Part shown: piece after piece, positions 1,294-59,918 of the stretch | Layout: the number at the start of each line of letters is the position of its first letter | Numbering within the stretch: the stretch's first letter is position 1 | NCBI RefSeq assembly: GCF_900105355.1 | Contig: NZ_FNSC01000001.1 | Span: 3,968,001-4,032,000, forward strand | Source of the DNA: Pseudomonas anguilliseptica | GTDB taxonomy: Bacteria; Pseudomonadota; Gammaproteobacteria; Pseudomonadales; Pseudomonadaceae | Direction: 5' to 3' | DNA length: 64,000 nucleotides | Made by a program: the position numbers and the translations under genes | The notes under the pieces: generated by a model | The model's database searches: none | What the model was told of the DNA's origin: nothing | What the model saw: the letters and a program-made list of their open reading frames with translations, nothing else

Positions 1294-2417
1294 GTGTCAG
1301 ATAAGAACTTCAAGGTTGTGGTGCTGGGCGGTTACGGCAATTTCGGCACTGTTATCGTCAATCGTCTGTGCAGCATCACTGGCATGAGTGTGTGGGTTGC
1401 CGGTCGCGATCAGGCCAAGGCCGAGCGGTTGGCGGCCCAGGCGGGTTGCCAAGCCGTGCGTCTGGATGGCAATCAGGCAGATCTGGCCGAGCGACTGAGC
1501 GACTGAGCGAATTGGGTACCGATTTGCTGATTTCCACCGCTGGCCCGTTTCAGGACCAGGATTATCGCGTGGCCCAGGCCGCCATTGCTGCCGGCGTGCA
1601 TTACCTTGACCTGGCCGATGCCCGCAAATTCGCCTGCGGCATAGGCGAACTCGACCAGGCGGCGCGCCAGGCCAATGTGCTGATCAGCAGCGGTGCCAGT
1701 TCGGTGCCGGCTCTGAGCGCTGCGGTGATCGATCAGTTGCTGCCGCGCTTCGGTCGCCTGGACAGCATCTGGCACGGCATCAGCTCCTCGGAGAAAACCC
1801 CAGGGGTATCGACCCTGGCGGCGGTACTCAACTATTGCGGCAAGCCGTTTCGCCAGTGGCGCGAGGGTCAGTGGCGTGAGGTCTATGGCTGGCAGGAGCT
1901 GACGGCTCATGACTTTCCCGCACCGCTGGGCCGGCGCTGGCTGGGCAACTGCGATATTCCCGATCTGGAGCTGTTTCCCGCTCGCTATGTGGGCGTGCGC
2001 AATGTGCGTTTTTCGGCAGGGGTAGGTTTGCGCGTGACCCAGTTCGGCACCTGGTTGCTGTCCTGGTTGGTGCGCGGCGGCTTGTTGCGCAGCGGCGTGC
2101 CCTTGGCCGGCTTGCTGCATCGCGGTGCGGTGCTGGTGGAGCCCTTCGGCGACCGCCTGAGCGGCATGTTCGTCAAGCTGCAGGGGCAGGGCGCGGATGG
2201 CCAGCCCTTGGGCCTGTGCTGGGAACTGATCGCCCGTGACAACCATGGGCCGAATATCCCCTGCATGGCGGCGGTGGCGCTGGCGCGCAAACTGGCCGCC
2301 GGCAACCTCGAACAACGCGGCGCCATGCCCTGTATGGGATTGCTTAGCGTCGACGAATATCTGGCCGAACTGGAGGGGCTGCAGATCGAAGCAGGCCTAC
2401 GCCCATGCTCTACCTAA
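1294..2417 (+). pseudogene. Saccharopine dehydrogenase-like protein, broken by an 8-bp tandem duplication
   Basis: This is a saccharopine-dehydrogenase-family NAD(P)-binding protein of unknown substrate. The N-terminus has a Rossmann motif, VVVLGGYGNFG. The GTG start at 1294 has an AAGGA ribosome site about 9 nt upstream. The frame runs to ...LAERLS and then meets D-TGA at 1501-1506, because the octamer GACTGAGC at 1493-1500 is repeated at 1501-1508. Removing one copy restores ...AERLSELGTDLLISTAGPFQDQDY and an open frame to 2417, about 371 aa, the usual family length. As written only a 70-residue stub is made. The end overlaps the DUF2269 gene by 13 nt, so loss of translation to the natural stop may also reduce that gene's expression. 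The duplication could be a real mutation, a reversible slippage site or an assembly artefact. Confidence 0.85.
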
Positions 2418-2869
2418 GCCTTAAATGGCTACATATCCTCAGTGCCACCGTGCTGGTGGGCGTGGGGTTCGGTACTGCCTTCTACAAATGGATGATCGAC
2501 CGCAGCGGAGATGTGCGGGCCATCGTCTATACCAGTCGACTGGTGGTGCTGGCCGATTGGCTGTTCACCACCCCGGCGATCATCCTGCAACCGCTGACTG
2601 GTTTGTGGATGCTGCATATCGCCGGCTATTCGCTGAGCAGCACCTGGATCGCCTGGACTCTGCTGCTATATGTCCTGGCCGGGGTCTGTTGGCTGCCGGT
2701 GGTCTGGCTGCAGTACCGCATGCGCGCCCTGGCAGCGGCGGCGCTGGCGACCGATCAGGCGCTACCGGCGAGCTATTGGCGCTGTGCGCGTATCTGGTTC
2801 TGGCTTGGTATCCCGGCTTTTTTCGCCATGTTGGCGATCTATGCACTTATGGTGTTCAAGCCACAGTAA
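2405..2869 (+). CDS. DUF2269 family integral membrane protein
   Basis: This 154-aa protein is predicted to be almost wholly membrane-embedded, with four hydrophobic segments: roughly residues 5-25, 45-70, 80-102 and 128-150. The N-terminal LKWLHILSATVLVGVGFG and the central WLFTTPAIILQPLTGLWML match the DUF2269 family as I know it. No enzymatic function is established. The ATG lies inside the 3' end of the saccharopine-dehydrogenase-like gene (13-nt overlap), an arrangement that usually means translational coupling and a shared role. No strong ribosome site of its own is visible. Confidence 0.8.
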   Translation: MLYLSLKWLHILSATVLVGVGFGTAFYKWMIDRSGDVRAIVYTSRLVVLADWLFTTPAIILQPLTGLWMLHIAGYSLSSTWIAWTLLLYVLAGVCWLPVVWLQYRMRALAAAALATDQALPASYWRCARIWFWLGIPAFFAMLAIYALMVFKPQ

Positions 2870-2930
2870 GCACCGATTGCGGGTCTCACACCTGCCAGGC
2901 TACTGCTCGCCTGCATGTCACAGTGGCGAC

Positions 2931-3803
2931 TCAGAAGGCCTTGGTTTTCGGCCTGATCGTCGCCGCCGCACCGGCTGAGGCAAGGATGATGGCGCTGATC
3001 GCCAGCCATTGACTGAGGGTCAAGCGCTCGCTGAGGAACAGCAGGCCGGAAAGCGCGGCAATCGCCGGCTCCATACTCATCAGGATGCTGAAGGTACGTG
3101 CGGGCAGGCGGGTCAGGGCGACCATTTCCAGGCTGTAGGGCAGGGCCGAGGACAACACGGCGACGCCGAGGGCAATGGGTAGCAGGTCCACGGAGAACAG
3201 ACCGCTGCCGGCTTGCCAAAGGCCAATCGGGAACACCAGCAGGGCTGCGACTATGGTGCCGAGTGCCACGGTGTGCTTGCCGTGTTCCGATCCGGCTTTT
3301 TGCCCGAAAATGATATACAGCGCCCAGCACAGCCCTGCTGCCAACGCCAGGCCCATGCCGGCCGGGTCCAGCGGTACATCGCTTTGCCCAGTGGGTAACA
3401 GCAGTCAGAGGCCGAAAACCGCCAGGGCAATCCAGATGAAATCCACCAGACGGCGTGACGATAACAGCGCCAGGCCCAGTGGCCCGGTAAATTCCAGGGC
3501 TACGGCAATGCCCAGTGGAATGGTTTTCAACGAGAGATAGAACAGCAGGTTCATGCCGCCCAGCGACAACCCGTAAGCCAGCAGCGAACGGCAGGACTTC
3601 AGCGTCAGCTTGGCCTGCCAGGGTCGCATCAGGATGCACAGGATCAGCGCGCCAAGGCTCAAACGCAGGGCCGTGGTGCCGCTGGCACCAATCTCCGGGA
3701 ACAGTCCTTTGGCCAGGGACGCGCCGCTCTGGATCGAGGTCATGGCGATCAGCAGCAACAGGATCGGCAGGATCACCAGAGAGAATTGCGCTGAGCGCGG
3801 CAT
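2931..3803 (-). pseudogene. rhtA: EamA/RhtA-type amino-acid exporter, in-frame stop
   Basis: This is a ten-helix drug/metabolite-transporter (EamA) protein most like RhtA, the threonine/homoserine exporter. The frame starts at ATG 3803 after an AAGGAA site and reads to FIWIALAVFGL, where a TGA occurs at 3407-3405. The same frame continues without a shift as LLLPTGQSDVPLDPAGMGLALAAGLCWALYI and runs to 2931. With one sense codon in place of TGA the product is 290 aa, close to the usual 295. Tryptophan fits the context, so a single G-to-A change (TGG to TGA) is the simplest explanation. TGA is used as a normal stop and TGG as tryptophan elsewhere in the window, so recoding is unlikely. The first fragment holds about five helices and should be non-functional. 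Confidence 0.85.
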
Positions 3804-3833
3804 GGCTGTTCCTTTGGATATCTATCCAGTAAT

Positions 3834-3863: not shown

Positions 3864-3880
3864 TGCACCACGGCTAAGGC

Positions 3881-5859: not shown

Positions 5860-5944
5860 CTGGCAGCTACAGCCGTCTATACTGGGTTCAAAGCCAGTAT
5901 GGATTCGGCGCTGTTCTCTCTGTTCAGGCAGGCGGGCACTGTTC

Positions 5945-8157
5945 ATGGATGACCAATTTGCATTCAGTGACGACCTTCCCTGCACCACCAGCCAGCCCGT
6001 GTGGCGCGTGCTGGCAGTTGATGATGACGCCGCTTCCAGCGTGCCATCGCCTTTGCCCTGAGCGAACTGGAGCTGCTGGGCGGGCGTATTGAGTTGATTC
6101 AGGCGTTCAGCTGCCGTGAAGCCTCGATGCTGCTGGCCAAGCACCATGACATTGCCCTGGTGTTGCTTGATGTGGTGATGGAAACCGAAGACGCCGGCTT
6201 GCGCCTGATCAAGGCGCTGCGTGAGGTGATCGGCAATCGCGAAACCCGCGTGGTGATGCTCACCGGTGAGCCAGGCCTGGCGCCGGCCCATGAAGTGATG
6301 CGCGATTACGACATCATTGACTATTGGACCAAGAGTGAACTCAGTGCCGAGCGCTTGCTGACGGTGCTCACCGCCGCGGTGCGCGGTTATGCCCAGCTCA
6401 GGGCTGTAGCCAGTGCGCGGCGCGGTTTGCAGATGATCGTCGAGTCGAGCAATGCACTTTTCTGTTCGAAGAATACCCGCGAGCTATCGGCCAAGATTCT
6501 GTCGGAGATCACCTCGCTGCTTGATCTGCAGACCGAGGGCATTGTCTGCGTGCGCGCCGATGAGGGGGACGCCACGGCTGAACCCAATGCGCGAATTGTC
6601 AGCGCCAGCGGGCGTTTTTTCGACTGTGTCGACGCCAATCTGGACGTGTTGCAGCTAGAGGTCGCAGCGGCGGTGCGCCAATGCCTGCAGGCGCAGCAGA
6701 CCCTGCGTCTGAGCGATTGCACGGTGTTGTTCTTTCCGCGCTTTCAGGCTGGCTCGGATTACGTTTGCTATATCGACAGTGCGCGGACTCTGGATGACAC
6801 CGAGTTGGAGCTGCTCAAGGTGTTCAGTGTCAGTATCAGTCGTGGCCTGTACAACATCGCGCTGTTCAGCCGCCTGGAGGAGATGGCCTATCAGGACGAC
6901 CTGCTGAAGATCCCCAACCGCAATGCGCTGATTCGCATGCTGGATATGACCCTGAAGTCCGAGGCCAAGGATCAGCGCGTGCTGGTGCTTATCGATATCG
7001 ATAATTTCTCCGGTGCCAACACCGCCTTTGGCACCGGTTATGGCGACTTTATTCTCGGCCTGGTGGCGAAGAAACTACGTGACGCTTTCACCCATGAGGT
7101 TCTGATTGCCCGGGTACGTGATGACCTGTTTGCCATCCTCGGCCCGCAAACCCAGGTTAATGCCGCGGACGTGGTGGCACTGTTCCGCCGGCATAAACGC
7201 CCTTATGAGCTGGGCCAGGTGCACAGTCTGAGCAGCGTGACCATGCACCTGGCTGATTTTACCGGCAGCGCCAGCGTGGCCCTGCAAGATGCGTTGTTGA
7301 CCCTGAAACAGGCCAAGCGCCTGGGTCACGACCAGCATGGTGTCTATGATCCGCGCCTGCAGAGTGCGCATGCCGAGTCATACCGCATGCTGCTGGCTTT
7401 GCGCGATGCGGTGGAGGCCGGGCAGATCAGTGTCGAGTTACAGCCGCAGATCGACCTGCAAACCCGTCGCATTACCGGTGTGGAAGCGCTGGCTCGCTGG
7501 CGCAAGGCCGACGGCAAGATGGTTCCGCCGCTGAGTTTTATCCCCCTGGCCGAGGCCACCGGTTACATCCTGCCGCTCGGCGATCTGTTGATGCGCTTGG
7601 CCCTGCAGGCGGCGAAACAGCTGACTGATGCCGGTTATCCGCATATTCGCGTGGCCGTTAACGTCTCCGCGCCGCAGCTGCTGCAGCATGACTTTATCGA
7701 GCGGTTCAACTCGCATCTGCAGGCGGCGGGGGTAGTGCCTGAGCAGATCGAGGTGGAAATTACCGAATCGGTAGCCATGCGCACCTTTGATACAGTCTGT
7801 GAAAAGCTCCGTGCGCTACGCGCTATGGGCGTAGAGGTGGCCATCGATGACTTTGGCACTGGTTTCTCATCACTCAGCTACCTGCGACTGTTGCCAGCCG
7901 ATCGCTTGAAAATCGATCGCAGTTTTGTTCTGGAAATCGGTGAGGTCAGCGATCAGCAAATGATCGCCGAGGCGGTGATCCAGATTGCTGCGCGGGTTGG
8001 CATGCAGGTAATTGCCGAAGGCGTCGAAACCCAACAGTAGGCCGACTGGATTCTCAAGCATGGCTGCCGGCAGGCGCAGGGCTATCTGTTTGCCAAGCCG
8101 ATGGCCTGCGCAGATTTACTCAGCTGGCTGAGTGACTGGCCAGGGCGCATGGCCTGA
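5945..8157 (+). pseudogene. Response regulator with DUF3369, GGDEF and EAL domains, frameshift plus amber stop
   Basis: The intended product is about 737 aa: a receiver domain (VWRVLAVDDDA... and LVLLDVVMETEDAGLRLIKAL), a DUF3369-like middle region, a GGDEF domain and an EAL phosphodiesterase domain. The usual GGDEF motif reads RDDLF, so cyclase activity is not expected. The EAL part keeps EALARW, NVSAPQL, VEITESV, IDDFGTGFSS and AEGVET. Two lesions are visible. Near 6037 one base is missing (ATG frame ...VDDDAASSVPSPLP-TGA; the true frame resumes as FQRAIAFALSELE). At 8038-8040 a TAG follows GVETQQ, and the same frame continues ADWILKHGCRQAQGYLFAKP to a TGA at 8155-8157. The stop removes the conserved QGY segment. 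The natural end overlaps the kinase ATG (TGATG), so this was a response-regulator/kinase pair. Confidence 0.85.
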
Positions 8158-11108: not shown

Positions 11109-12383
11109 TTACTTCTTCAGGTCGCGCTGCTCGTAGCCGGTGTACAGCTGGCGTGGACGGCCAATCTTGTACGGGCTGGAGAGCATTTCTTTCCAGTGCG
11201 AGATCCAGCCGACGGTCCGCGCCAGGGCGAAGATCACGGTGAACATGCTGGTCGGAATACCGATGGCCTTGAGGATGATGCCCGAGTAGAAGTCGACGTT
11301 CGGGTACAGGTTGCGCTCTTTGAAGTACGAGTCGGTCAGGGCGATTTCTTCCAGACGCATCGCCAGTTCCAGCTGCGGATCGTTCTTGATGCCCAGCTCT
11401 TTCAGTACTTCGTCGCAGGTCTGCTTCATCACGGTGGCGCGCGGGTCGCGGTTTTTGTAAACGCGATGACCGAAGCCCATGAGTTTGAACGGGTCGTTCT
11501 TGTCCTTGGCCTTGGCGATGAATTTGTCGATGTTGGAAACATCGCCAATCTCATCCAGCATGCTCAGTACGGCCTCGTTGGCGCCACCGTGCGCCGGGCC
11601 CCAGAGGGCGGCGATACCAGCAGCGATACAGGCGAACGGGTTGGCGCCCGAGGAGCCAGCCAGGCGTACGGTAGAGGTAGAGGCGTTCTGCTCATGGTCG
11701 GCGTGCAGGATAAAGATCTTATCCATGGCCTTGGCCAGTACCGGGCTGATCGGTTTGATCTCGCACGGGGTGTTGAACATCATGTGCAGGAAGTTTTCCG
11801 CGTAGTTCAGGTCGTTACGCGGATACATCATCGGCTGACCCATGGAGTACTTGTAGGTCATGGCGGCGATGGTTGGCATCTTGGCGATCAGGCGCATGGC
11901 CGATACTTCGCGGTGATGCGGGTTATTGATGTCCAGTGAGTCGTGGTAGAAGGCCGAAAGGGCACCCACTACGCCGCACATGATGGCCATCGGGTGAGCG
12001 TCACGACGGAAGCCGTTGAAGAAGGTCTTCAGTTGCTCGTGAACCATGGTGTGGTTCTTGATGGTGCTGACGAACTTGGCTTTCTCTTCTGCGTTCGGCA
12101 GTTCGCCGTTTAGCAGCAGATAGCAGGTTTCCAGATAATCGGATTGCTCAGCCAGCTGCTCGATGGGGTAGCCGCGGTGCAGCAGGATGCCCAGGTCGCC
12201 GTCGATGTAGGTGATCTTCGACTCGCACGAGGCGGTGGACATAAAGCCAGGATCAAATGTGAAACGGCCCGTGGCGGTTAAGCCCCGCACGTCAATTACA
12301 TCGGGACCAACGGTGCCGGTTAAAATGGGCAGCTCGACGGGGGCTGCGCCCTCGATGATCAACTGCGCTTTTTTGTCAGCCAT
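11109..12383 (-). CDS. gltA: Citrate synthase
   Basis: Type II citrate synthase of 424 aa, condensing oxaloacetate and acetyl-CoA to citrate in the cytosol as the entry step of the TCA cycle. Characteristic segments are [21 protein letters not shown], the catalytic-region histidines in [20 protein letters not shown] and [14 protein letters not shown], and the C-terminal [12 protein letters not shown]. The frame extends 21 codons upstream, but the ATG at 12383 has an AGGAGG 6 nt before it and begins [12 protein letters not shown] as in other pseudomonads. The gene is divergent from the sdh-suc operon and has its own strong promoter. The hexameric type II enzyme is usually inhibited by NADH; that is family knowledge. 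Confidence 0.97.
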
Positions 12384-12444
12384 GTTTGGCCTCCTAGTTA
12401 TGCTTGAAATCATCTGACTGCCCCCCCCACGCAGGGCTCGCACC

Positions 12445-12472
12445 ACTATAGTGAGATAAATTCGAATGTCAA
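12445..12472 (-). promoter_or_regulatory. gltA sigma-70 promoter
   Basis: On the minus strand TTGACA (12472-12467) is followed after 16 nt by TATAGT (12450-12445). The -35 is a perfect consensus and the -10 matches at five of six. It gives a leader of about 55 nt before the gltA ATG. Confidence 0.85.
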
Positions 12473-12586
12473 TTTGCGAAAACCCAGGCGGCAGAAGGGT
12501 TTGCGGGTTGTTTTCGGGCTTTTAAAGCGGCTCTTTACGCCATTTATTAGAGGTGTGCAATGCGCTTTTAGGTAGGGGGCTTTGCG

Positions 12587-12615
12587 TTGTCATTAGTAAC
12601 CTAACTGTCTATACT
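12587..12615 (+). promoter_or_regulatory. sdh-suc operon sigma-70 promoter
   Basis: TTGTCA (12587-12592), a 17-nt spacer and TATACT (12610-12615) form a near-consensus sigma-70 promoter. Transcription would begin near 12622, leaving a leader of about 110 nt before sdhC. Confidence 0.82.
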
Positions 12616-12733
12616 CTGCGCCCAGCTACCAAGGGCTTTAGCCTGTCTTTTGGTGGCTGTCACTCCTTGGGTGATGGGTACCTGACCAGTGCACTTCCCG
12701 ACAACTTTGCCCTGATAGTTAGGGGCTCTCAGT

Positions 12734-13123
12734 GTGATAAAAAAAGCCGTGAATAGCCAAAGACCTGTAAACCTCGACCTTAGGACGATCAAACTTCCTA
12801 TCACTGGCGTTACGTCATTCCTTCACCGCGTTTCTGGAATCATTCTGTTTTTCGGCATTGCCGTGCTGCTGTACGGGCTCGACAAGTCGCTGACATCTGC
12901 AGAAGGTTTTGCCGAGGTGAAAGAGTGCTTGACCAGCCCGCTGGCCAAGTTTGTGATTTGGGGGCTGTTGTCCGCTCTGCTGTACCACCTGGTGGCCGGT
13001 ATTCGCCACTTGATCATGGACATGGGCATCGGTGAGACGCTGGAAGGCGGCAAGCTGGGTTCGAAAATCGTTATCGTCGTTTCGACGATCGTGATCGTGC
13101 TGCTGGGGGTGTGGATATGGTAA
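12734..13123 (+). CDS. sdhC: Succinate dehydrogenase cytochrome b556 subunit
   Basis: Membrane anchor subunit that, with SdhD, binds heme b and ubiquinone and fixes the SdhAB enzyme to the inner membrane. It has three helices (about residues 33-50, 72-92 and 108-129). Key features are SFLHRVSGI near the quinone site and the heme-ligand region HLVAGIRHLIMDMG. The start is uncertain: GTG 12734 has AGGGG 8 nt upstream, while homologues as I recall them begin near the second GTG at 12749 (VNSQRPVNLDLRTIK), which has no clear ribosome site. Length is 129 or 124 aa accordingly. It is the first gene of the sdh-suc operon. Confidence 0.93.
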   Translation: MIKKAVNSQRPVNLDLRTIKLPITGVTSFLHRVSGIILFFGIAVLLYGLDKSLTSAEGFAEVKECLTSPLAKFVIWGLLSALLYHLVAGIRHLIMDMGIGETLEGGKLGSKIVIVVSTIVIVLLGVWIW

Positions 13124-13485
13124 CCAACGTCACGAACTTCTCGCGTTCGGGTCTTTATGACTGGATGGCGCAGCGTGTATCTGCTGTCGTCCTCGCGGCT
13201 TATGTGCTTTTCCTGCTGGGCTATGTGGTGTGCAATCCGGGCCTGGGTTATGCCGAATGGCAGGCGCTGTTCTCCAATAACGCAATGCGTATCTTCAGTC
13301 TGTTGACCCTGGTGGCGCTCAGCGTACACGCCTGGGTTGGCATGTGGACAATTTCCACCGACTACCTGACGCCAATGGCGCTGGGTAAGTGGGCGACTGT
13401 TGTGCGTTTTCTGTTCCAGGCTGCGTGTGGCGTTGCCATGTTCGCGATGTTCGTCTGGGGCGTGCAGATTTTTTGGGGTAACTGA
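13117..13485 (+). CDS. sdhD: Succinate dehydrogenase membrane anchor subunit
   Basis: The second anchor subunit (122 aa) of complex II, with three transmembrane helices. WMAQRVSAVVLAAYVLFLLG and the heme/quinone region LSVHAWVGMWTISTDYL are diagnostic. The ATG at 13117 overlaps the end of sdhC (ATGGTAA), indicating translational coupling. It acts with SdhC to pass electrons from the iron-sulfur subunit to ubiquinone. Confidence 0.95.
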   Translation: MVTNVTNFSRSGLYDWMAQRVSAVVLAAYVLFLLGYVVCNPGLGYAEWQALFSNNAMRIFSLLTLVALSVHAWVGMWTISTDYLTPMALGKWATVVRFLFQAACGVAMFAMFVWGVQIFWGN

Positions 13486-13488
13486 TCC

Positions 13489-15261
13489 ATGACAAGCATT
13501 CGCACTCTTTCTTATGACGCCATCATTGTTGGTGGCGGTGGTGCAGGCATGCGTGCCGCGCTGCAACTGGCTCAGGGCGGCCACAAGACCGCGGTGGTCA
13601 CAAAGGTTTTCCCGACTCGTTCGCACACTGTATCTGCTCAGGGTGGTATCACTTGCGCCATCGCTTCGGCCGATCCGAACGACGATTGGCGCTGGCACAT
13701 GTACGACACCGTCAAGGGTTCCGACTATATCGGTGACCAGGACGCTATCGAATACATGTGTTCCGTGGGTCCAGAGGCCGTATTCGAACTGGAGCACATG
13801 GGGCTGCCGTTTTCCCGTACTGAACAGGGCCGCATCTATCAGCGTCCGTTCGGTGGCCAGTCCAAAGGTCCGAATAACCCAACTCAGGCTGCACGTACCT
13901 GCGCTGCTGCTGACCGTACCGGTCACGCACTGCTGCACACCTTGTACCAGGCCAACCTGAAAGCTGGCACTTCGTTCCTTAACGAGTGGTATGCCGTGGA
14001 CTTGGTGAAGAACCAGGACGGCGCGATTGTCGGTGTCATTGCCATCTGCATTGAAAACGGCGAGACCGTTTACATTCGCTCCAAGGCTGTGGTTCTGGCC
14101 ACTGGCGGTGCGGGGCGTATCTACGCCTCCACTACCAACGCCCTGATCAATACCGGTGATGGCGTGGGCATGGCCCTGCGCGCTGGTGTGCCGGTGCAGG
14201 ACATCGAGATGTGGCAGTTCCACCCGACCGGTATTGCCGGTGCTGGCGTACTGGTTACTGAAGGTTGCCGTGGTGAAGGTGGTTACCTGATCAACGCCCA
14301 TGGCGAGCGGTTCATGGAGCGCTATGCGCCGAACGCTAAAGACCTGGCTGGTCGCGATGTGGTTGCCCGCTCCATGGTCAAGGAAGTCATCGCCGGCAAC
14401 GGCTGTGGCCCGGACAAGGACCACGTACTGCTGAAGCTCGACCACCTTGGTGAAGACGTGCTGCACAGCCGCCTGCCAGGCATCTGTGAGCTGTCGAAGA
14501 CTTTCGCTCACGTCGACCCGGTCGTCGCTCCGGTTCCGGTCATCCCTACCTGCCACTACATGATGGGCGGCGTGCCGACCAATATTCACGGTCAGGCCAT
14601 CACCCAGGATGCCAACGGCAACGACAAGATCATCGAAGGTCTGTTCGCCGTGGGCGAAGTGGCGTGCGTATCGGTTCACGGTGCCAACCGTCTGGGTGGC
14701 AACTCGCTGCTCGACCTGGTGGTGTTTGGTCGCGCTGCTGGCCTGCACCTGGAAAAAGCGCTGAAAGAAGGCGTGGAAGTCCGTGGTGCCAGCGAAACCG
14801 ACATCGAGCTGTCGCTCAAGCGTCTGGCGGGCGTCAACGAGCGCACCACTGGCGAAGATGTCGCGCCGCTGCGTAAAGAGCTGCAACAGTGCATGCAAAA
14901 CTACTTCGGTGTATTCCGCACCGGTGAGTACATGCAGAAGGGCATCGCCCAACTGGCCGACCTGCGTGAGCGGATCGTGACTGTCAAGATCGCGGACAAG
15001 AGCCAGGCATTCAACACTGCGCGTATCGAAGCATTGGAACTGCAAAACCTTCTCGAAGTGGCAGAAGCCACCGCGATCGCTGCCGAGGTTCGTAAAGAAT
15101 CCCGTGGTGCTCACGCTCGTGAAGACTTCGAAGAACGTGACGACGAAAACTGGCTGTGCCATTCCCTGTATATCCCAGGTGAAAAGCGCGTGAGCAAGCG
15201 TTCGGTCAACTTCTCGCCGAAGACAGTTCCAGCGTTTGAACCCAAGGTCCGGACTTATTAA
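13489..15261 (+). CDS. sdhA: Succinate dehydrogenase flavoprotein subunit
   Basis: The 590-aa catalytic subunit of complex II, oxidising succinate to fumarate with covalently bound FAD on the cytoplasmic face. It has the dinucleotide fold [17 protein letters not shown], the FAD-attachment motif [10 protein letters not shown] with its histidine near residue 45, the substrate-site segment [20 protein letters not shown], the [19 protein letters not shown] motif and a C-terminal helical domain ending [13 protein letters not shown]. The length is that of the family. It starts 3 nt after sdhD. The frame is undisturbed. Confidence 0.98.
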
Positions 15262-15272
15262 GGGTGCCTGAT

Positions 15273-15995
15273 ATGTCGCAAGCCAATCTGTTGCAAGTAA
15301 GCGTTTATCGTTACAACCCGGAAAAAGATGCTGCTCCGTTTATGCAGGATTTCCAGGTCGACACCGGCGGCAAGGACATCATGGTTCTTGACGTACTGGC
15401 GCTGATCAAGGAACAGGACGAGGGTTTCTCCTATCGTCGTTCCTGCCGTGAAGGCGTGTGCGGTTCCGATGGCATGAACATCAATGGCAAGAATGGCCTG
15501 GCCTGCATCACGCCGATCTCGGCGGCTGGCCTGAAAGGCGGCAAGCTGGTAATTCGCCCGCTACCTGGCCTGCCGGTCATCCGTGACCTGGCTGTTGATA
15601 TGAGCATCTTCTACAAGCAGTACGAGAAGGTGCAGCCATACCTGCAGAACAACACGCCGGCTCCGGCCATCGAGCGTCTGCAGTCGCCGGAAGAGCGTGA
15701 GAAGCTGGATGGTCTGTACGAGTGCATCCTGTGCGCGTGCTGCTCGACCAGCTGTCCGTCGTTCTGGTGGAATCCAGACAAGTTCCTCGGTCCAGCTGCG
15801 CTGCTGCAGGCTTATCGTTTCCTGGCGGACAGCCGTGATACCCAGACCGAACAGCGTCTGGCGTCGCTGGATGATCCGTTCAGTGTGTTCCGTTGCCGTG
15901 GCATCATGAACTGCGTGAACGTCTGCCCTAAGGGTCTCAACCCGACCAAGGCGATCGGCCACGTCCGTAACATGCTGCTGAAAAGCGGTACCTGA
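15273..15995 (+). CDS. sdhB: Succinate dehydrogenase iron-sulfur subunit
   Basis: The 240-aa electron-transfer subunit linking SdhA to the membrane anchor. Three clusters are visible: the plant-type [2Fe-2S] ligands in SCREGVCGSDGMNINGKNG, the [4Fe-4S] motif CILCACCSTSCPS and the [3Fe-4S] motif CRGIMNCVNVCPKGLNP. The ATG at 15273 has AAGGG 8 nt upstream and is preferred to the in-frame GTG at 15264. A 247-nt gap with two hairpins follows before sucA. Confidence 0.97.
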   Translation: MSQANLLQVSVYRYNPEKDAAPFMQDFQVDTGGKDIMVLDVLALIKEQDEGFSYRRSCREGVCGSDGMNINGKNGLACITPISAAGLKGGKLVIRPLPGLPVIRDLAVDMSIFYKQYEKVQPYLQNNTPAPAIERLQSPEEREKLDGLYECILCACCSTSCPSFWWNPDKFLGPAALLQAYRFLADSRDTQTEQRLASLDDPFSVFRCRGIMNCVNVCPKGLNPTKAIGHVRNMLLKSGT

Positions 15996-16027
15996 TTCAC
16001 GGTTGTTTGCTAGACCTGTAACACCTG

Positions 16028-16142
16028 CGGCGCTGCTTTCAACCCAGCGCCGTAGTTTTAGCCAGGGCTGCTGCTCACAAAGCGGTGGTTCTTAATTTGA
16101 AAAATATGACGACCAGCAGGGGCATCCGGGCTGGTGCCCGGA
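16028..16142 (+). other. sdhB-sucA intercistronic hairpins
   Basis: Two hairpins lie in the 247-nt gap: CGGCGCTG...CAGCGCCG (16028-16052), followed by a weak TAGTTTTA tract, and TCCGGGC-TGGT-GCCCGGA (16125-16142). Neither has a full T tract. They could give partial termination, processing or mRNA stabilisation, allowing the sdh and suc parts to differ in level. A separate suc promoter here is possible but I could not identify a convincing one. Confidence 0.6.
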
Positions 16143-16242
16143 CTATCTGCGGGATCCGTAGTGGCTTACCAGTCGCTGCTTCAGGACTGACAGCCATGCG
16201 GTTTCTTCGCCGGTGGTGTCCCCTTACCGAGGGTGACCAAGC

Positions 16243-19074
16243 ATGCAAGAAAGCGTGATGCAGCGCATGTGGGACAGTGCCCACCTATCCGGTGGTAACG
16301 CTGCCTATGTGGAAGAGCTCTATGAGCTTTACCTGCACGATCCCAACGCTGTGCCAGAAGAGTGGCGCACTTACTTCCAGAAGTTGCCGACCGACGGCAG
16401 CGCCGCCACAGACGTATCGCACTCAACGATTCGCGATCATTTCGTCCTGCTCGCTAAAAATCAGCGCCGCGCCCAACCAGTGTCCGCTGGCAGCGTCAGC
16501 AGTGAGCACGAGAAGAAGCAAGTCGAAGTGCTACGCCTGATTCAGGCTTATCGCATGCGCGGCCATCAGGCTGCCCAGCTCGATCCGCTTGGCCTCTGGA
16601 AGCGTCCTGTGCCGGCTGACCTGGCAATCAATCACTATGGTCTGACCGATGCCGACCTGGACACTACCTTCCGTACCGGTGGGCTGTTCATTGGCAAGGA
16701 AGAGGCTACTCTGCGCGAAATTCGCGATGCGTTGCAGCAGACATATTGCCGCACCATCGGTGCCGAGTTCACCCATATCGTTGATTCCGAGCAGCGCAGC
16801 TGGTTCCAGCAGCGTCTGGAAAGCGTCCGTGGTCGCCCACAATTTTCGGTTGAGGTGCAGAGCCACCTGCTTGAGCGCCTGACCGCAGCTGAAGGTCTGG
16901 AAAAGTACCTTGGCACCAAGTATCCAGGCACCAAGCGTTTCGGTCTGGAAGGCGGCGAGAGCCTGATTCCGCTGCTCGATGAGCTGATCCAGCGTTCCGG
17001 TTCTTACGGCACCAAGGAAATCGTCATTGGCATGGCCCACCGTGGCCGCCTCAACGTACTGGTCAACACCTTCGGCAAGAACCCGCGCGACCTGTTCGAC
17101 GAGTTCGAAGGCAAGAAAACCGAAGGCCTGTCCTCCGGTGACGTGAAATACCACCAGGGTTTCTCCTCCAACGTGATGACCGCTGGCGGTGAAGTACACC
17201 TGGCGATGGCATTCAACCCGTCCCACCTGGAGATCGTTTCTCCAGTGGTCGAAGGTTCCGTACGCGCCCGTCAGGACCGTCGCAGCGATGCCAGCGGCGA
17301 AAAAGTGCTGCCGGTTTCCCTGCACGGTGATGCGGCCTTCGCCGGTCAGGGTGTGGTCATGGAAACCTTCCAGATGTCGCAGACTCGCGGCTTCAAGACG
17401 GGCGGCACCATCCACATCGTGATCAACAACCAGGTCGGCTTCACCATCAGCAACCCGCTGGACTCGCGTTCCACCGAGTACTGCACCGATGTGGCGAAGA
17501 TGATTCAGGCGCCGATCCTGCACGTGAACGGTGATGATCCGGAAGCAGTGCTGTTCGTCACCCAGCTGGCTGTCGATTACCGCATGCAGTACAAGCGTGA
17601 TGTGGTCATCGACCTGGTCTGCTACCGCCGTCGCGGCCACAACGAGGCCGACGAGCCGAGCGGCACCCAGCCGATCATGTATCAGCAAATCACCAAGCAG
17701 CGCACCACTCGTGAGCTGTATGCCGAAGTGCTGACTGCAGCCGCGCGTCAGTCGGCCGATGAGGTGCAGGCCAAGATCGACGAGTACCGCACAGCGCTGG
17801 ACAACGGTCAGCATGTGGTCAAGAGCTTGGTCAAAGAGCCGAACAAGGAGCTGTTCGTCGATTGGCGTCCGTACCTGGGTCACGCCTGGACCGCGCGTCA
17901 CGACACGCGTTTCGAGCTGAAAACCCTGCAGGAGCTGTCCAACAAGCTGCTGGAAATTCCGGAAGGCTTCGTCGTGCAGCGCCAGGTTGCGAAAATTCTC
18001 GAAGACCGCCAGAAGATGAGCGCAGGTGCGCTGCCGATCAACTGGGGCTACGCCGAGACCATGGCCTACGCCACCCTGTTGTTCGAAGGCCACCCGATCC
18101 GCATGACCGGCCAGGACATCGGCCGCGGCACCTTCTCGCACCGTCATGCGGTGCTGCACAACCAGAAGGATGCCGGCACCCATCTGCCGCTGCAGAACCT
18201 GTATCAGGGGCAGCCACGTTTCGATCTGTACGACTCCTTCCTCTCGGAAGAAGCCGTACTGGCCTTCGAATACGGCTACGCCACCACACAGCCGCAGTCG
18301 CTGGTGATCTGGGAAGCGCAGTTCGGCGACTTCGCCAACGGTGCTCAGGTGGTGTTCGATCAGTTCATTTCCAGTGGCGAGCACAAGTGGGGCCGTCTGT
18401 GCGGCCTGACCATGCTGCTGCCGCACGGTTATGAAGGGCAGGGGCCTGAGCACAGCTCGGCGCGTCTGGAGCGTTATCTGCAGCTGTGCGCCGAGCACAA
18501 CATGCAGGTGGCGGTACCGACCACCCCAGCGCAGATCTACCACTTGCTGCGTCGTCAGGTGATTCGCCCGCTGCGCAAGCCATTGGTCGTATTGACGCCG
18601 AAGTCGCTGCTGCGCCACAAATTGGCCATCTCGACTCTGGAAGATCTGGCCGAAGGCTCGTTCCAGACCGTGATTCCGGAGATCGATGCCATCGACCCGA
18701 AGAAAGTCGAGCGTCTGATTCTGTGCAGCGGCAAGGTTTACTACGACTTGCTGGAGAAGCGCCGCAACGAAGGCCGCGAAGACATCGCCATTGTGCGTAT
18801 CGAGCAGCTCTATCCGTTCCCGGAAGATGATCTGGCCGAGGCAATTGCCCCGTACAAGAACCTCAAGCACATCGTCTGGTGTCAGGAAGAGCCGATGAAC
18901 CAGGGCGCCTGGTACTGCAGCCAGCATCACATGCGTCGCGTGGCGACAGCGCACAAGAAAGCGCTGTTCCTCGAGTACGCCGGTCGTGATGCGTCTGCTG
19001 CACCGGCCTGTGGTTATGCATCGATGCACGCCGAACAGCAGGAAAAACTCCTGCAAGACGCCTTTACTGTTTAA
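16243..19074 (+). CDS. sucA: 2-oxoglutarate dehydrogenase E1 component
   Basis: The 943-aa thiamine-diphosphate-dependent E1 subunit that decarboxylates 2-oxoglutarate and passes the succinyl group to the SucB lipoyl arm. Signature parts are the N-terminal SucB-binding segment YVEELYELYLHDPNAVPEEW, the catalytic GMAHRGRLNVLVN, the ThDP/Mg region HVNGDDPEAV, CYRRRGHNEADEPS and the C-terminal transketolase-like domain with GQDIGRGTFSHRHAVLHNQ and LPHGYEGQGPEHSSARLER. Length is normal. GAGGG lies about 8 nt before the ATG. It is the first gene of the suc part of the operon. Confidence 0.98.
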   Translation: MQESVMQRMWDSAHLSGGNAAYVEELYELYLHDPNAVPEEWRTYFQKLPTDGSAATDVSHSTIRDHFVLLAKNQRRAQPVSAGSVSSEHEKKQVEVLRLIQAYRMRGHQAAQLDPLGLWKRPVPADLAINHYGLTDADLDTTFRTGGLFIGKEEATLREIRDALQQTYCRTIGAEFTHIVDSEQRSWFQQRLESVRGRPQFSVEVQSHLLERLTAAEGLEKYLGTKYPGTKRFGLEGGESLIPLLDELIQRSGSYGTKEIVIGMAHRGRLNVLVNTFGKNPRDLFDEFEGKKTEGLSSGDVKYHQGFSSNVMTAGGEVHLAMAFNPSHLEIVSPVVEGSVRARQDRRSDASGEKVLPVSLHGDAAFAGQGVVMETFQMSQTRGFKTGGTIHIVINNQVGFTISNPLDSRSTEYCTDVAKMIQAPILHVNGDDPEAVLFVTQLAVDYRMQYKRDVVIDLVCYRRRGHNEADEPSGTQPIMYQQITKQRTTRELYAEVLTAAARQSADEVQAKIDEYRTALDNGQHVVKSLVKEPNKELFVDWRPYLGHAWTARHDTRFELKTLQELSNKLLEIPEGFVVQRQVAKILEDRQKMSAGALPINWGYAETMAYATLLFEGHPIRMTGQDIGRGTFSHRHAVLHNQKDAGTHLPLQNLYQGQPRFDLYDSFLSEEAVLAFEYGYATTQPQSLVIWEAQFGDFANGAQVVFDQFISSGEHKWGRLCGLTMLLPHGYEGQGPEHSSARLERYLQLCAEHNMQVAVPTTPAQIYHLLRRQVIRPLRKPLVVLTPKSLLRHKLAISTLEDLAEGSFQTVIPEIDAIDPKKVERLILCSGKVYYDLLEKRRNEGREDIAIVRIEQLYPFPEDDLAEAIAPYKNLKHIVWCQEEPMNQGAWYCSQHHMRRVATAHKKALFLEYAGRDASAAPACGYASMHAEQQEKLLQDAFTV

Positions 19075-19087
19075 CGCCTTCGCGCAA

Positions 19088-19110
19088 CAGGCGGCCAACT
19101 GGGCCGCCTG
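19088..19110 (+). other. sucA-sucB intercistronic hairpin
   Basis: CAGGCGGCC-AACTG-GGCCGCCTG is a perfect 9-bp stem 14 nt after the sucA stop, with no T tract. It is more likely to block 3' exonucleases or attenuate than to terminate. Confidence 0.65.
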
Positions 19111-19143
19111 CTAGAAGAAACCGAATTTAAGGAACCACACACA

Positions 19144-20367: not shown

Positions 20368-20386
20368 AAGCCAGTTTCTCCCACGG

Positions 20387-21870
<1,484 letters not shown>

Positions 21871-21893
21871 GACGTTGTTTGTTTGAGCGGATG

Positions 21894-21922
21894 CCTTCAC
21901 CGGCGTTGTGTACCGGTGAAGG
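21894..21922 (+). other. lpdG-sucC intercistronic hairpin
   Basis: CCTTCACCGG and CCGGTGAAGG form a perfect 10-bp stem with a 9-nt loop, 23 nt after lpdG, without a T tract. The remaining 156 nt before sucC show no gene and no clear promoter. Confidence 0.65.
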
Positions 21923-22078
21923 TGCAGCTCAACAGGAAGAACCACGGCCGACTGCCCGCGTACAGCTCAGGTTCTGCGCGGAACGTCAGCCGGATTGCTG
22001 CAGAAGCAGTCACAGGTGGTGCGGCATCACAAGTGCAGCACCGTATGCGCAATACCTAAACGAAGACGGTAGACAAGC

Positions 22079-31757: not shown

Positions 31758-31851
31758 GTCGGCGTTTGATTGACACACCGGACAGTCTCGTTTGTCATGC
31801 TGTCATTGCGCCACTAGTGCGCATGCACAACCGATGCAGTCTTGGGGTGGT

Positions 31852-43521: not shown

Positions 43522-43660
43522 ATGATCGATAGGTCAAGAAGGCTAAGAGTGAGTCGATAGCTGTATCTGTAGATATTGGCTGAAGGTCTTAAGGCATTCA
43601 TAAGGATAATGGCCATACGCTATCGAATAAGCTGCTTCAGAACTGTAAAGGACTGCCGTG

Positions 43661-45286
43661 ATGACCCTAAGAAATCTCAATATTGCGCCCAGAGCGTCGC
43701 TGGGCTTTGGCCTGGTGGCGCTACTGGTTCTGCTGCTCGGTAGCTTTTCGTTGCTGCAGATGAGCGAAATGAACAAGCAGTCGGAGCAGATAAATGGGAA
43801 CTGGTTGCCCAGTATCCTGAGTCTGGCAGAGATGAATCAGGATCTGCTGCGGCTACGGGCACTGGCCCTGCGCTCAATGCTCAACAGCGATGAGTCATCG
43901 ACCAAGCAGAACATCGCCAGAATGGAAGAGTTCCGAGGCCTCTTACACAAAGCCCAACGTGAATATGAAAAGCTGATTTCCAGTGCAGAGGAAAAGACTC
44001 TTTACGGGCGCTTCAAGCAGGCTGAGAGCAGTTATCTGCAGGAGCAAAACAGGATCGTTGATGCGTTAAAGAAAAATGACTTGGACGCTGCACTAGCGGT
44101 CGCCCACGGCTCGCTCAACGGCCACGCCGACAGCATGGCCAAGGCCCTGGCTGAACTGTCTGAGTTGAACCGGGTTGGCGCCACCGCCGCTGCCAAAAAT
44201 GCCGATGAGGTATTTGAACGCTCGCGTTGGTGGGTAATCGTGATGATTGCTCTGGCACTTGGCCTGACGGTGATCCTGGCACTGCTGCTGACCCGCAGTA
44301 TCGTTGCGCCGCTGAGCGAGGCGGTACGGGTGGCCGAAGTGGTGGCAAGCGGCAACCTGACCCAACCCATCGAGGTGCAGGGCAGTGATGAGCCGGCGCG
44401 TTTATTGAGTGCCTTGAAAAGCATGCAGCAGAGCCTGCGCAGCACCATCAGGAATATTTCCGACTCCTCCACGCAGCTGGCCTCGGCGTCAGAAGAACTC
44501 AGTGCGGTGACCGAGGACTCGACCCGCGGCTTACACCAGCAGAACAATGAAATCGAGCAGGCGGCTACAGCGGTCAATCAAATGACCAGTGCCGTGGAAG
44601 AGGTCGCGCGTAATGCCGTCAGCACCTCTGAGGCATCCAGTGAGTCCAACCGCACGGCCCAGCATGGCCGCGAGCAGGTGCGCCAGACTGTCGAATCGAT
44701 CAGTAACCTGGCTGATGACGTGACCCATACCGCCTCCGAAGTTGAGCAGCTGGCCGGGCAGGTGCGCGATATCAGCAAGGTACTGGATGTGATCCGTTCG
44801 ATTGCCGAGCAGGCCAATCTGCTGGCGCTGAACGCCGCGATTGAAGCCGCGCGGGCAGGTGAAGCCGGGCGCGGTTTTGCCGTGGTAGCCGATGAGGTGC
44901 GGGCCCTGGCGCATCGCACCCAGCAGTCGACCCGTTAAATCGAGCAAATGGTCAGCGGCATTCAGCAGGGCACCGACAAAGCGGTGAGCTCCATGCAGAA
45001 CAGCAACAGCCGGGCGCGTTCAACTCTGGATGTAGCCAAGGCTGCAGGCCAGGCGCTGGATGAGATTGCGGCTGCGATTTCGCAGATCAACGAGCGTAAC
45101 CTGGTGATTGCCAGCGCTTCGGAAGAGCAGGCTCAGGTGGCCCGCGAAGTGGATCGCAATCTGGTGAATATCCGTGATCTGTCGATGCAGTCTTCGGCCG
45201 GGGCCAACCAGACCAGTGCAGCCAGCCAGGAGTTGTCACGTCTGGCGGTGGACCTCAATGCACTGGTAGCGCGCTTCTCTATCTGA
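43661..45286 (+). pseudogene. Methyl-accepting chemotaxis protein with in-frame ochre stop
   Basis: The full frame is 541 codons: a helix near residues 13-33, a four-helix-bundle ligand domain, a second helix (about 188-208), HAMP and a long cytoplasmic signalling domain. The tip is intact ([35 protein letters not shown]). Directly after AHRTQQSTR a TAA stands at 44936-44938 and the same frame continues IEQMVSGIQQGTDKAV to 45286. GAA is the likely original codon. The stop removes the whole returning helix of the hairpin, including the C-terminal methylation region, so normal kinase control is not expected. AAAGGA lies 8 nt before ATG 43661. Confidence 0.88.
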
Positions 45287-47284: not shown

Positions 47285-49214
47285 CTAGCCTGCAGCAGTT
47301 GAGCCTTCTTGACTACCCGTCAAAGGTCGAGAGGGCAGCCAGCGTTGCAGGATTCGCTGCAAATCAGCCCGTTTGAAGGGTTTTGCCAGGTAGTCATTCA
47401 TGCCCGATTGCAGGCAGGCCTCGCGGTCGCCCTGCAGGGCATTGGCGGTCAGGGCGATGATCGGCAATTCGGCGCAGCCCGGCAGGCGGCGGATCTGCCG
47501 CGTGGCCTCGTAGCCATCCATGATTGGCAGGCGGCAATCCATCAGAATTGCTGCATATCTCTGCTGGCTGACCTGATGCACGGCCTGGGCACCATCGCCG
47601 ACCAGACTTACCTGATAGCCCAGGCTGCGCAGCATCGCCTCAATCTACGGTCTGGTTGACCGGGTTGTCTTCGACCAGCAGCACCGGCTGGCCTTTACCC
47701 TGGTCTGCTGGCAGTGGTGCGTCGCTGACAGCAGGTGCGACCTGCTGGGAAAAGGGCAGTGGCACTTCCAGGGTAAATACCGAGCCCTGGCCTTCCTGGC
47801 TGACCGCGCGCAGGGTGCCGCCCATGCGCTCGGCAAGGGTGCGGGCAATGGGCAAACCCAGCCCGGTGCCTCCGTAACGTCTTGAAATAGAAGTGTCGGC
47901 CTGCTGGAAGGCATCGAACATATGTTCCAGGCGCTCGGGGGAGATGCCGATGCCGCTGTCGTGTACCGCGCAGCTGAACCACAGTACCTGGTTGTCCAGC
48001 GCCTGCCAGGTGCTGTGTACGCGGATACTGCCGCTTTCGGTGAATTTCAGGGCGTTGCCGATCAGGTTGACCAGAATCTGCCGAATCCGCGTTGGGTCGC
48101 CCTGTACCTGTACCTGCAGCTGCTCCAGCCCGCTCTGCGTGTCCAAGAGCAATTGCAGGCCTCGCTGCTGGGCGCTGTGTTGGAATACCTGAATCGAGCT
48201 TTGCAGCAGGTCGAGCAGGCTGAAAGGGATGCGCTCCAGTTCCAGCGCACCGCGTTCGATGCGCGAGAAATCGAGAATATCGTTGATGACTTTCAACAGG
48301 TGCTCGGTGGACTCGGTGGCCAGGGCGGCGTATTCCGCCTGCTCCTGGGTCATTTCCGTGGTTTCCAGCAACTGCAGCATGCCCAGTACGCCATTCATCG
48401 GTGTGCGCAACTCGTGGCTCATCATCGCCAGGAAATCGGATTTGGCACGGTTGGCCAGCTCCGACTGTTCGCGCGCTTGAATCAGCAGGGCCATGGCCCG
48501 TTGTTGTTCTTCACTTGCGCTGGCCAGGCCGTGGGCGAGGTTGTTGATATGCCGCGCCAGCGCCTGCAATTCCCCTTCACCGACTTCGGGCAGAGTGGTC
48601 TGGTAGTTGCCGGCCTGAATCGCGCTAACCGCTTCGCCCATGGCGCTAAGCGGTTGTGACAGATGGCGGGCCAGGCGGCGAGCGAGAAGAAAGGTCAGTA
48701 CCAGGGCAAACAGGGCGATCAGGGTGGCCTTGAAGAGGATTTCCTGCTGGCGGGTGTTGAAGGCATCGTTGGACATGCCCACGACGACATAACCCAGGTA
48801 GTCATCGGTCAACGTTTGCTGAGTGGGACTGTTTAATGCCGCGCGTTGCAGATGGATCGGCGCCTGGAATACCTCAACCAGGCTACTGGCGTGGCCGCTG
48901 CCGGGTGTCTGTTCGACGTAGACGAGAATCTTGCCGGTGTGGTCGCGTACTTCAAGGAAGCGCACATGCGGGGTCTTCAACGTGGCTTGCAGCAGGGCAT
49001 CGAGGACATCGAGGTTGCCGGAAATCACCCCGTAGGTGCTGGCCGGGGCCAACTGGCTGGCGATCAGCTGGCCGTTGTGGTTGAGCTCCTGACGCAGGTC
49101 CTGCAGGCGGGCAAAGGTGAAGAATCCGGTGAGCAGCAGGGTCAGCAACAGGGCGGGGCCGACACTGATCAGTTGAGTACGGGTATGGATATTCCAGCCG
49201 CGGCGCAGAATCAT
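47285..49214 (-). pseudogene. Hybrid sensor kinase like PA1611, 1-bp insertion before receiver
   Basis: The restored product is about 642 aa: a helix (about 17-35), a periplasmic sensor, a second helix (about 165-185), HAMP, HisKA ([20 protein letters not shown]), HATPase ([38 protein letters not shown]) and a receiver. The kinase frame reads [13 protein letters not shown] then D-TGA; removing one base at 47645 gives [19 protein letters not shown] and a complete receiver with LMDCRLPIMDG, ending 47285. Position next to fabAB and domain order match P. aeruginosa PA1611, which is reported to bind RetS and influence the Gac/Rsm switch. As written, kinase and receiver are separated, and the receiver lacks its own start. 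Confidence 0.87.
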
Positions 49215-49417
49215 CGGGCCACTCCGCTGCTGCGCAGAACTTGCGAGCGCTGGAGAGCTGGCCGATTTTTCACGACCTTAGGGTGAAGCCGGGCTTGGGT
49301 GCTATAGATCACGCCACAACCTTGTTTGCGTTTTAAAAGGCTGCATGTTAACTGAGCTGCCTGGCTTTGCCAGTGCCAGGCAACCTGCTAAAAGCTGGCT
49401 GCATACAGGTGTCGCCG

Positions 49418-58143: not shown

Positions 58144-58264
58144 GTTCGCAGTGCAACCGTGCTGGTGTTCGAGCGGGTTGGCATTCTCGGGAAATTTCCC
58201 CCGCGGCGCCTTGGTCGCCTGTAGCCGGGGTGGTAGCCTTGCTGCGCTTCGCCGGCTGATACAC

Positions 58265-58295
58265 GGCTTGCGCAGTCAGGCGTTGTGCGCAAGCC
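58265..58295. other. 10-bp hairpin in the leader of the YdgA-like gene
   Basis: GGCTTGCGCA-11 nt-TGCGCAAGCC is a perfect inverted repeat in the 231-nt gap before 58375. It lacks a T tract and could be an operator or an mRNA structure. I see no gene in the gap. Confidence 0.55.
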
Positions 58296-58374
58296 CGACG
58301 CCGCGCCTCAAACCGCAACAGGCGGTAGCAGGGAAGCCCCACACCTATAACGGACACGCAGGATTACTCCTCCC

Positions 58375-59918
58375 ATGAAGAAAATTGCAGGCAGCGCCCT
58401 TGGCGCAGTTGTCGTTCTCGGCGCATTGAGCACCGCAGGCGCCTGGTACACCGGTCAGCAGCTTCCAGCGGTGCTGGAAACCTCGATTCAGCAAGCCAAC
58501 CAGGATATGGGCAAAACCCTGCCGGCCCTTGGCCTCAGCGCCAGCATCGAGCTGGTTTCCCTGGAGCGCCAGCTGTTCAGCAGCAACGCGCGCTATCGCA
58601 TTCAGTTTGCCGGCAGCCTGGATGGCGAATCGCCGAGCAACTTCGAGTGGTTAGTCACCGACCGCATCGAACATGGGCCTTTCCCGCTTTCGCGGTTGCA
58701 AAGCCTGAAGTTGCTGCCCGTTATGGCCACCAGCAACTATGCGCTGGAGCGCAGCCCGGAGCTGGAGAAGTGGTTCGCCGGTAGCCAGGGCGGTGCGCCG
58801 CTGCAGGGCCAGGTCAGCCTCGGTTATGACCGTTCGATGAGCGGCAACCTGCGTGTGCAGCCGCTGCAGATGGCGCTGGATGAACAGAGCCAGATTGATT
58901 TCAGCGGCCTGGAGATCGACTTCGACAGCAGCGCGAATGTCGAGAAAATCAGCGCCAGTGGCGTGATGGACAGTTTCAAGGTCACCTCAACCCTGTCCAC
59001 CGATGAAAGCATGCGCCTTGAGTTCAGGGGTATGAACCTCACCAGCAACACCCGCAAGGGTACCAGCGACTTCTACCTGGGACAGAACGAGGTGCGTCTG
59101 CAGCAGATCGAGCTGCAGATTGGCGAGAGCGCGCCCATCCTGTTCAAGGATTTCGTTCAGCGTGATGAGACCAGCGAGGCCAACCAGCAGCTGTCGGCAC
59201 GCTACAGCTATGACGTCGGCATGATCAGCTATCAGGGCACTGATATCGGCTCCTCGCAAATGCTCTGGACCGTGAAAAACCTCGACGCGCGGCTCTGCAG
59301 TCGATGATCGAGCTGTACGGCAGCCTGCTGCAGAGCGGCAAGGTCGACAGTGAAAGCGGTATGCCGCAGCTGACCGACGAGCAGACTGCGCTGTTCAAGA
59401 CCGATCTGGAAAAACTGCTGGCCGGCAAACCGGGCCTGGCCCTGGAAAAACTGGCGTTCAAGACCGCCAACGGCGAGAGCAGCTTCAGCTTTGGCTTGGA
59501 CTTGAACAAGCCGGCATCATTCGACCTGCCGGCGCCTGAGCTGGCCAAGCAGCTGATCGCTCAGCTGGATGCCAAACTGCTGGTGTCCAAGGCGATGATT
59601 GCCGATGTAATTGGCGTGCAGGCCACTCTGGCCGGGGAAACCGACAAGGAAGCGATTGCCCAGCAGGCTGCGATGGTAGGTGACATGGCCAGTGGCATGG
59701 CGGTGGCCAGCGAACTGGCGGTGGTGCAGGGCGAGGACATCAGCTCCAGCCTGCAGTACGCCAACGACCAGGTGACTTTCAACGGCAAGCAGATGACCGT
59801 AGAGCAGTTCGTCGCACTGGCCATGAGCAGCGGCGGCGGTTTGGCGGGCATGGCCCCTGAAACCCCGGCTGAGGAAATGCTGCTGGAAGAAAGCGAGGCT
59901 GAAAGCACCCTTCAGTAA
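58375..59918 (+). pseudogene. YdgA/DUF945 family protein, 1-bp deletion
   Basis: The restored product is about 514 aa and matches the YdgA (DUF945) family of inner-membrane-anchored periplasmic proteins of unknown role. An N-terminal anchor (IAGSALGAVVVLGALSTAGAW) precedes a long beta-rich region. The first frame ends LWTVKNLDARLCSR-TGA at 59307; the next frame supplies MIELYGSLLQSGKVDSESG and continues to 59918. One base is missing near 59291, probably one G of the GG at that place, giving LDAR-ALQSMIELYG. The truncated product lacks about 200 C-terminal residues. Confidence 0.87.

Follow-up and report, generated by a model that had tools for sequence, protein, structure and literature searches.

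The stretch of DNA studied here, a 64-kb window of a Pseudomonas genome (C1:3968001-4032000, on contig C1; positions given without a contig are those of the window), contains eight genes broken by nine small lesions. All nine had been put forward in an earlier note made from the sequence alone, and the comparison with close relatives that it had suggested bore them out: in nucleotide alignments to the orthologous loci of relatives, counted as distinct genomes among the matches listed, each lesion was absent from every relative aligned. Three of them are in-frame stops. The gene for an RhtA-type EamA exporter (2931 to 3803, minus strand) has one at 3405-3407, after roughly 45% of its length, which occurs in none of 13 relatives; the EamA protein of Pseudomonas peli is intact, with 290 amino acids (aa). 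A regulator with receiver, DUF3369, GGDEF, and EAL domains (5930 to 8157, plus strand) carries two lesions, a 1-bp deletion at about 6034-6037 and a stop at 8038-8040, each absent in 13 of 13 relatives (the P. peli protein is intact, at 742 aa). The third stop (44936-44938) lies within the signalling domain of a methyl-accepting chemotaxis protein (43658 to 45286, plus strand) and is missing in all six orthologues, the protein of the relatives being intact at 541 to 542 aa. The three are different stop codons. By alignment, two arose by transition and one by transversion, in agreement with the proposal that at least two were transitions.

The remaining lesions change the reading frame. An MHYT-PAS hybrid sensor kinase with an Hpt domain (31822 to 35474, plus strand) has lost 7 bp near 32057, not 1 bp as the earlier note had it, with an effect on the frame equal to that of a single base; the deletion shifts the frame at residue 79 of the 1,237-aa P. 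peli protein and is absent in four of four relatives. Deletions of 1 bp affect an anti-sigma factor of the RskA type (38356 to 39080, minus strand; deletion at about 38650-38655, absent in six of six relatives, with an intact RskA_C protein of 241 aa in P. peli) and a YdgA-like DUF945 protein (58375 to 59918, plus strand; deletion at about 59290-59291, absent in five of five), which now lies in two reading frames and is intact in P. peli (514 aa). In a hybrid sensor kinase with sCache, HAMP, HisKA, HATPase, and receiver domains (47285 to 49235, minus strand), a 1-bp insertion at 47645 severs the receiver. None of eight relatives has this insertion, and their kinase, intact at 640 to 647 aa, retains the receiver domain. 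Finally, an 8-bp tandem duplication at 1493-1508 causes a frameshift in a saccharopine-dehydrogenase-like gene (1294 to 2417, plus strand), on whose downstream frame the Pfam domain Sacchrp_dh_NADP was found with a score below its cut-off. Ten of the 11 loci searched for this event gave a match (73 to 82% identity), and relative to all ten matching relatives the net difference was +8 bp; in two of the ten (G303 and G307), the gene bears a stop of its own. This family is present in 88 of 298 genus genomes, the present one included, and the stretch that holds the gene here (1278-2930) is missing from the ten relatives compared, which show a short gap there.

The window also holds a stretch free of lesions (11109 to 24132, no strand assigned), where proteins named by Pfam as citrate synthase, succinate dehydrogenase flavoprotein, a lipoamide-dehydrogenase-type protein, and a succinyl-CoA-ligase-type protein are intact, together with an intact 943-aa protein that we take to be 2-oxoglutarate dehydrogenase. 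The Hsp90 gene htpG (29810 to 31714, plus strand) is likewise whole. Thus, the claim that core sequence was untouched stands for the tricarboxylic acid (TCA) cluster and htpG; the labels fabAB and gpsA were not confirmed, none of them being among the ten proteins scanned.

The genome comprises 5.23 Mb in three contigs, with a completeness of 99.98%. Contig C2 (206,092 bp), which carries mutS and one chemoreceptor gene, appears to be chromosomal, and the assembly may thus leave the chromosome open. The nearest genomes found by protein identity were those of P. peli DSM 17833 (G041) and P. anguilliseptica MatS1 (G047) and four metagenome-assembled genomes (MAGs), namely, HGW-Gammaproteobacteria-13 (G038), two further Pseudomonas MAGs (G039 and G040), and UMS_A.mb.22 (G042). 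DNA identity to these six, measured in aligned blocks over the first 18 kb of the window, was 82 to 93%, which places the genome in the P. peli / P. anguilliseptica group, probably as a species distinct from all six.

Decay is not peculiar to the window. We compared about 0.68 Mb of the genome reciprocally with P. peli, where alignable, scoring as a lesion any stop or frame change located at 15% to 97% of the gene in tblastn matches (genes of at least 150 aa). Under this rule, 19 of 235 P. peli genes were lesioned here, versus 5 of 238 genes in P. peli (Fisher p=0.003), and two of those five calls were fragments of genes broken here instead of P. peli lesions. When only genes paired with one in P. 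peli were considered, 6 of 37 were lesioned in the window and 13 of 198 in the rest of the sample, a difference that was not significant (p=0.09) and leaves clustering in the window as such without support. Outside the window, the damage reaches, among others, three chemoreceptors and genes for a fatty acid cis/trans isomerase, a sodium symporter, and HPP-CBS, YhhN, HDOD, and DsbA-like proteins. The isomerase gene (C1:3953073-3955325), which lies upstream of the window at a distance of ca. 13 kb, is split by two deletions. Four genes that we hold to be broken escape the rule, namely, those for the MHYT kinase (lesion at 6%), the HPP-CBS protein (at ca. 11 to 15%), the isomerase, which was flagged only by other comparisons, and the saccharopine-dehydrogenase-like protein, which has no P. 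peli partner.

The distribution of lesions follows constraint. When the sample was split by conservation, the conserved half (118 genes, 147.7 kb) had only 2 lesioned genes, while the less conserved half (117 genes, 127.3 kb) had 17 (p=0.0002). Along similar lines, the median divergence at codon positions 1 and 2 was 0.031 versus 0.019, the lesions lying in the less constrained genes. Core genes were therefore spared, in the sample as in the TCA cluster and htpG.

The most conspicuous losses concern chemoreceptors. Matches to PF00015 (37 here and 40 in P. peli) were merged into 34 and 37 genes, respectively. A script alone flagged 17 of the 34 and 3 of the 37. Curation removed six of the calls made here (three start-site differences, one extreme C-terminal change, one chain of two genes, and one undecided case on contig C2) and brought in one gene whose match covered just 29% of the reference, giving about 12 broken chemoreceptors; in P. 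peli, two start-site cases were removed, and about one remained. In both genomes, receptors that partly matched a distant reference with neither a stop nor a frame change were counted as intact. The difference was significant (p=0.0004), even when the curated count was set against the uncurated three of P. peli (p=0.008). The damage consists of stops, frameshifts, and truncation, and one gene has an insertion sequence (IS) inside. Chemoreceptors were also struck more often than the other sampled genes (about 12/34 versus 15/228; p=1.5e-5, and p=0.002 per base), so that the concentration of lesions in signalling genes that the earlier note had read from the window does hold for chemoreceptors genome-wide. 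Ten frames of the flagellar region were all intact (FliK, FliP, FlhB, FlhA, CheA, CheB, a MotB-type protein, and FlhF-, FleN-, and ParA-type proteins, the last three named by domain reading). About a third of the receptors for chemical sensing have been lost while the sampled swimming genes are intact.

The second feature that sets this genome apart is an IS element. In a search for the transposase domain PF01609, all 150 candidates that were scored, out of 175, matched, giving at least 150 copies, compared with one match each in P. peli, G038, G047, and the relative G014. An unconfirmed first look at PF01609 candidates in 149 genus genomes, with no more than 19 candidates scored in each, gave 174 here and no more than 31 in any of the 128 others listed; a further 20 genomes, outside those 128, had no match. 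The right end of the element occurs exactly 155 times, with no occurrence in a reversed control. Twelve copies compared were about 1,197 bp long (one was cut at its left end) and fell into subfamilies 84 to 91% alike between and 99.6 to 100% within, the latter value indicating that the expansion is recent. The DDE transposase (PF01609), the length of ca. 1.2 kb, and the related terminal ends are features of the IS5 family, in which a 4-bp target duplication is the rule; repeats of 4 bp (CTAA, for example) lie on both sides of several of the twelve copies. Plasmid annotations assign to the same family the related elements ISPst7, ISPre1, and ISPa16 of Pseudomonas plasmids, which share the transposase family and 86 to 88% DNA identity over almost the whole 1.2 kb (best 20 rows). 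Unlike the present genome, these plasmid records have at most nine places each among the matches listed. None of the listed copies falls in the window, the chance of finding no copy in 64 kb being 0.15. Outside it, eight abutting head-to-tail pairs, spaced 1,195 to 1,197 bp, were seen among the listed copies (for example, at C1 3345104 and 3346299, 2453604 and 2454800, and 3572670 and 3573866).

Counts of changes on each branch bear on the age of the decay. In 6,858 codons common to five genomes (51 genes besides the seven broken ones), the present branch had 24 amino acid changes (N) and 306 silent changes (S). In the seven broken window genes, the N/S counts were 14/101, not significantly different from the 24/306 of the others (p=0.12), which suggests that selection maintained these genes along most of the branch and that their disruption is recent.

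Our preferred explanation, to which we assign a probability of about 0.7, is that the window samples a Pseudomonas genome in an early and recent phase of decay, brought about by relaxed selection, drift, and an IS burst. Purifying selection on dispensable genes would have weakened recently, the likely occasion being a bottleneck, niche narrowing, or association with a host. Single stops and small frameshifts would then build up in poorly constrained genes, drift fixing such small lesions, and an IS5-family element with several co-resident subfamilies would meanwhile have spread to about 150 to 175 copies. Chemoreceptors are hit hard, with the sampled core genes, the sampled parts of the flagellar and chemotaxis machine, and mismatch repair staying intact. 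The lesions and their absence from relatives, the excess beyond the window, the number of IS copies, the loss of chemoreceptors, and the low rate of replacement are observations; relaxed selection and drift as the cause, as well as any change of habitat, are what we infer from them. Gene decay was one of the options named in the earlier note, whose interpretation is thus partly supported, and the excess over P. peli extends it beyond the window. A more specific version, which we offer only tentatively, is that we see, within the P. peli / P. anguilliseptica group, a lineage that might be entering a host-restricted or very narrow way of life, in which sensing (chemoreceptors, cyclic di-GMP proteins, and hybrid kinases) decays first and the flagellum, the chemotaxis core, and metabolism remain whole.

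Several results weigh against this explanation. The lesions were read from assembled sequence, and the searches turned up no conspecific genome (the best protein matches were 98%, 96%, 93%, and 94% identical), so that fixation of the lesions is presumed. The genome is not small: its 5.23 Mb compare with 4.0 to 5.0 Mb for nine of the ten relatives, the tenth having 5.2 Mb, and genome reduction was thus not detected, although it would be expected only at a later stage of degradation. Not all of the 19 flagged genes are certain; the cobalamin adenosyltransferase near C1:2876210, for example, is doubtful because its domain lies beyond its stops. For two of the 12 broken chemoreceptors, the reference used was a distant one (27% and 49% identity). 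A first lesion caller, based on global alignment, found no difference between the genomes (38 flagged among 269 genes here, 40 among 285 in P. peli); it was dropped since many of its calls, in both directions, were gene-start differences on inspection. In the intact genes, a raised rate of replacement was not seen, N/S being 0.078 here and 0.151 in P. peli (p=0.01), which disfavors long-standing weak selection and means that the decay must be recent. Lastly, no window lesion is an IS insertion, and when 11 IS flanks were compared with the available P. peli sequence, one gave an empty site and ten had no match, so the IS burst and the decay are linked by co-occurrence only.

Poor sequence or assembly errors, one of the options raised in the earlier note, could in principle mimic decay, and such errors may occur among the genomes used, given that rpoB of G038 (C15:5908-7511) lies in two frames, probably through an assembly error. 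Random errors should strike genes in proportion to their length, and the lesions found here avoid conserved genes (2 versus 17 in the two halves); the completeness is high, eight genes of the rpoB region are free of lesions, and base errors that make stops would raise N too, so that 24 N and 306 S leave little room for errors numerous enough to yield chance stops. Together, the avoidance of conserved genes and the few amino acid changes on the branch make this source very unlikely. The 11 single-base indels found in ten broken genes (one of them belonging to an in-frame 6-base insertion) point the same way, for one lies in a run of five and the other ten in runs of three or fewer. Indels in runs of one to three bases are unlike long-read errors. 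The same avoidance of homopolymers counts against a mutator lineage without mismatch repair, which the earlier note had considered from the form of the lesions. In favor of a mutator, four of the nine lesions in the window are single-base indels, and two of the three stops are transitions. Lineage-specific transitions and transversions at fourfold sites did show an excess of transitions when the seven broken window genes were taken by themselves (41/13 versus 70/51; p=0.03), but none in intact genes (122/50 versus 314/134 in P. peli, G038, and G040 pooled; p=0.92) or in all genes (163/63 versus 384/185; p=0.23). The number of silent changes on the branch was below that of P. peli (411), though above those of G038 (175) and G040 (192). 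Both frames that the mutator idea would have broken are open, MutS as 868 aa without a stop and a MutL-like protein as an intact 625 aa, the check covering the reading frames of these two genes. Overall, loss of mismatch repair appears highly improbable. Restoration of the products by recoding or read-through, favored solely by the high sequence identity downstream of each lesion, was rejected, as it would have to act on three different stop codons and six frameshifts at unrelated sites, and the aligned relatives do not have the same events.

Two further explanations accept the decay and differ in its cause. The losses could be adaptive, if a stable niche such as a biofilm, particle, host, or reactor selected for the loss of specific regulators and chemoreceptors, and the excess of broken receptors next to an intact sampled flagellar and chemotaxis core is what such selection would leave. 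However, relaxed selection would predict the same, chemoreceptors probably being a large and partly redundant family, and the victims outside signalling are varied, from the fatty acid cis/trans isomerase and the sodium symporter to the HPP-CBS, YhhN, and DsbA-like proteins; we therefore consider adaptive loss unlikely. A neutral IS burst with drift in one clone, for instance following prolonged culture or a severe bottleneck, with the habitat unchanged, would account for the close similarity of the IS copies. According to a modelling study (PMC4072520), transient IS expansions can arise from an imbalance of duplication, deletion, and transfer and are not necessarily tied to changes in population size. 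The window genes, however, were broken by point lesions and none by an IS, and the lesions of the sample concentrate in less conserved genes, so this scenario, too, seems fairly unlikely in comparison with relaxed selection accompanied by an IS burst.

The process inferred is of a known kind, unusual for the genus and in its degree. Pseudomonas is generally regarded as a genus of versatile generalists. Among other genera, the fish pathogens Aliivibrio salmonicida and Aeromonas salmonicida combine many IS copies with many pseudogenes, which a review ties to host restriction or genome reduction (PMC3364575). In the same review, A. salmonicida has 88 copies of 10 IS elements and has lost flagellar genes, unlike the present genome, with at least 150 copies of one family and the sampled flagellar genes intact (PMC3364575). 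Also unlike these pathogens, our genome is not known to be linked with any host or disease. Degradation within a Pseudomonas lineage has a parallel in the insect symbiont “Candidatus Pseudomonas adelgestsugas,” which stands at the far end of such decay: its genome is described as highly reduced and AT-rich, unlike the IS-rich 5.2 Mb found here, and no insertion sequences were found in the adelgid symbiont genomes examined (PMC8857208). Genome decay is rarely observed at an early stage, before genes disappear. Here, at least 150 IS copies, pseudogenes mostly with one or two lesions, and intact sister genes make the order of loss readable, with chemical receptors going before the motor that they steer. 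With strains from known habitats, it could be tested directly whether a bottleneck, host restriction, or an imbalance of transfer triggers IS bursts.

Some minor features were seen along the way. In the alignment with P. peli, the counterpart of a flavin-reductase-like frame in the window (61436-62380) carries an in-frame stop. Beyond the window, a tandem duplication of about 9.4 kb (C1:4047803-4066348) has copies that are 99.9% identical, and a further repeat besides the IS, ca. 2.06 kb long with frames of 131 and 518 aa and 99.8% identity, occurs at C1 positions 4033747, 4044658, and 3768001.

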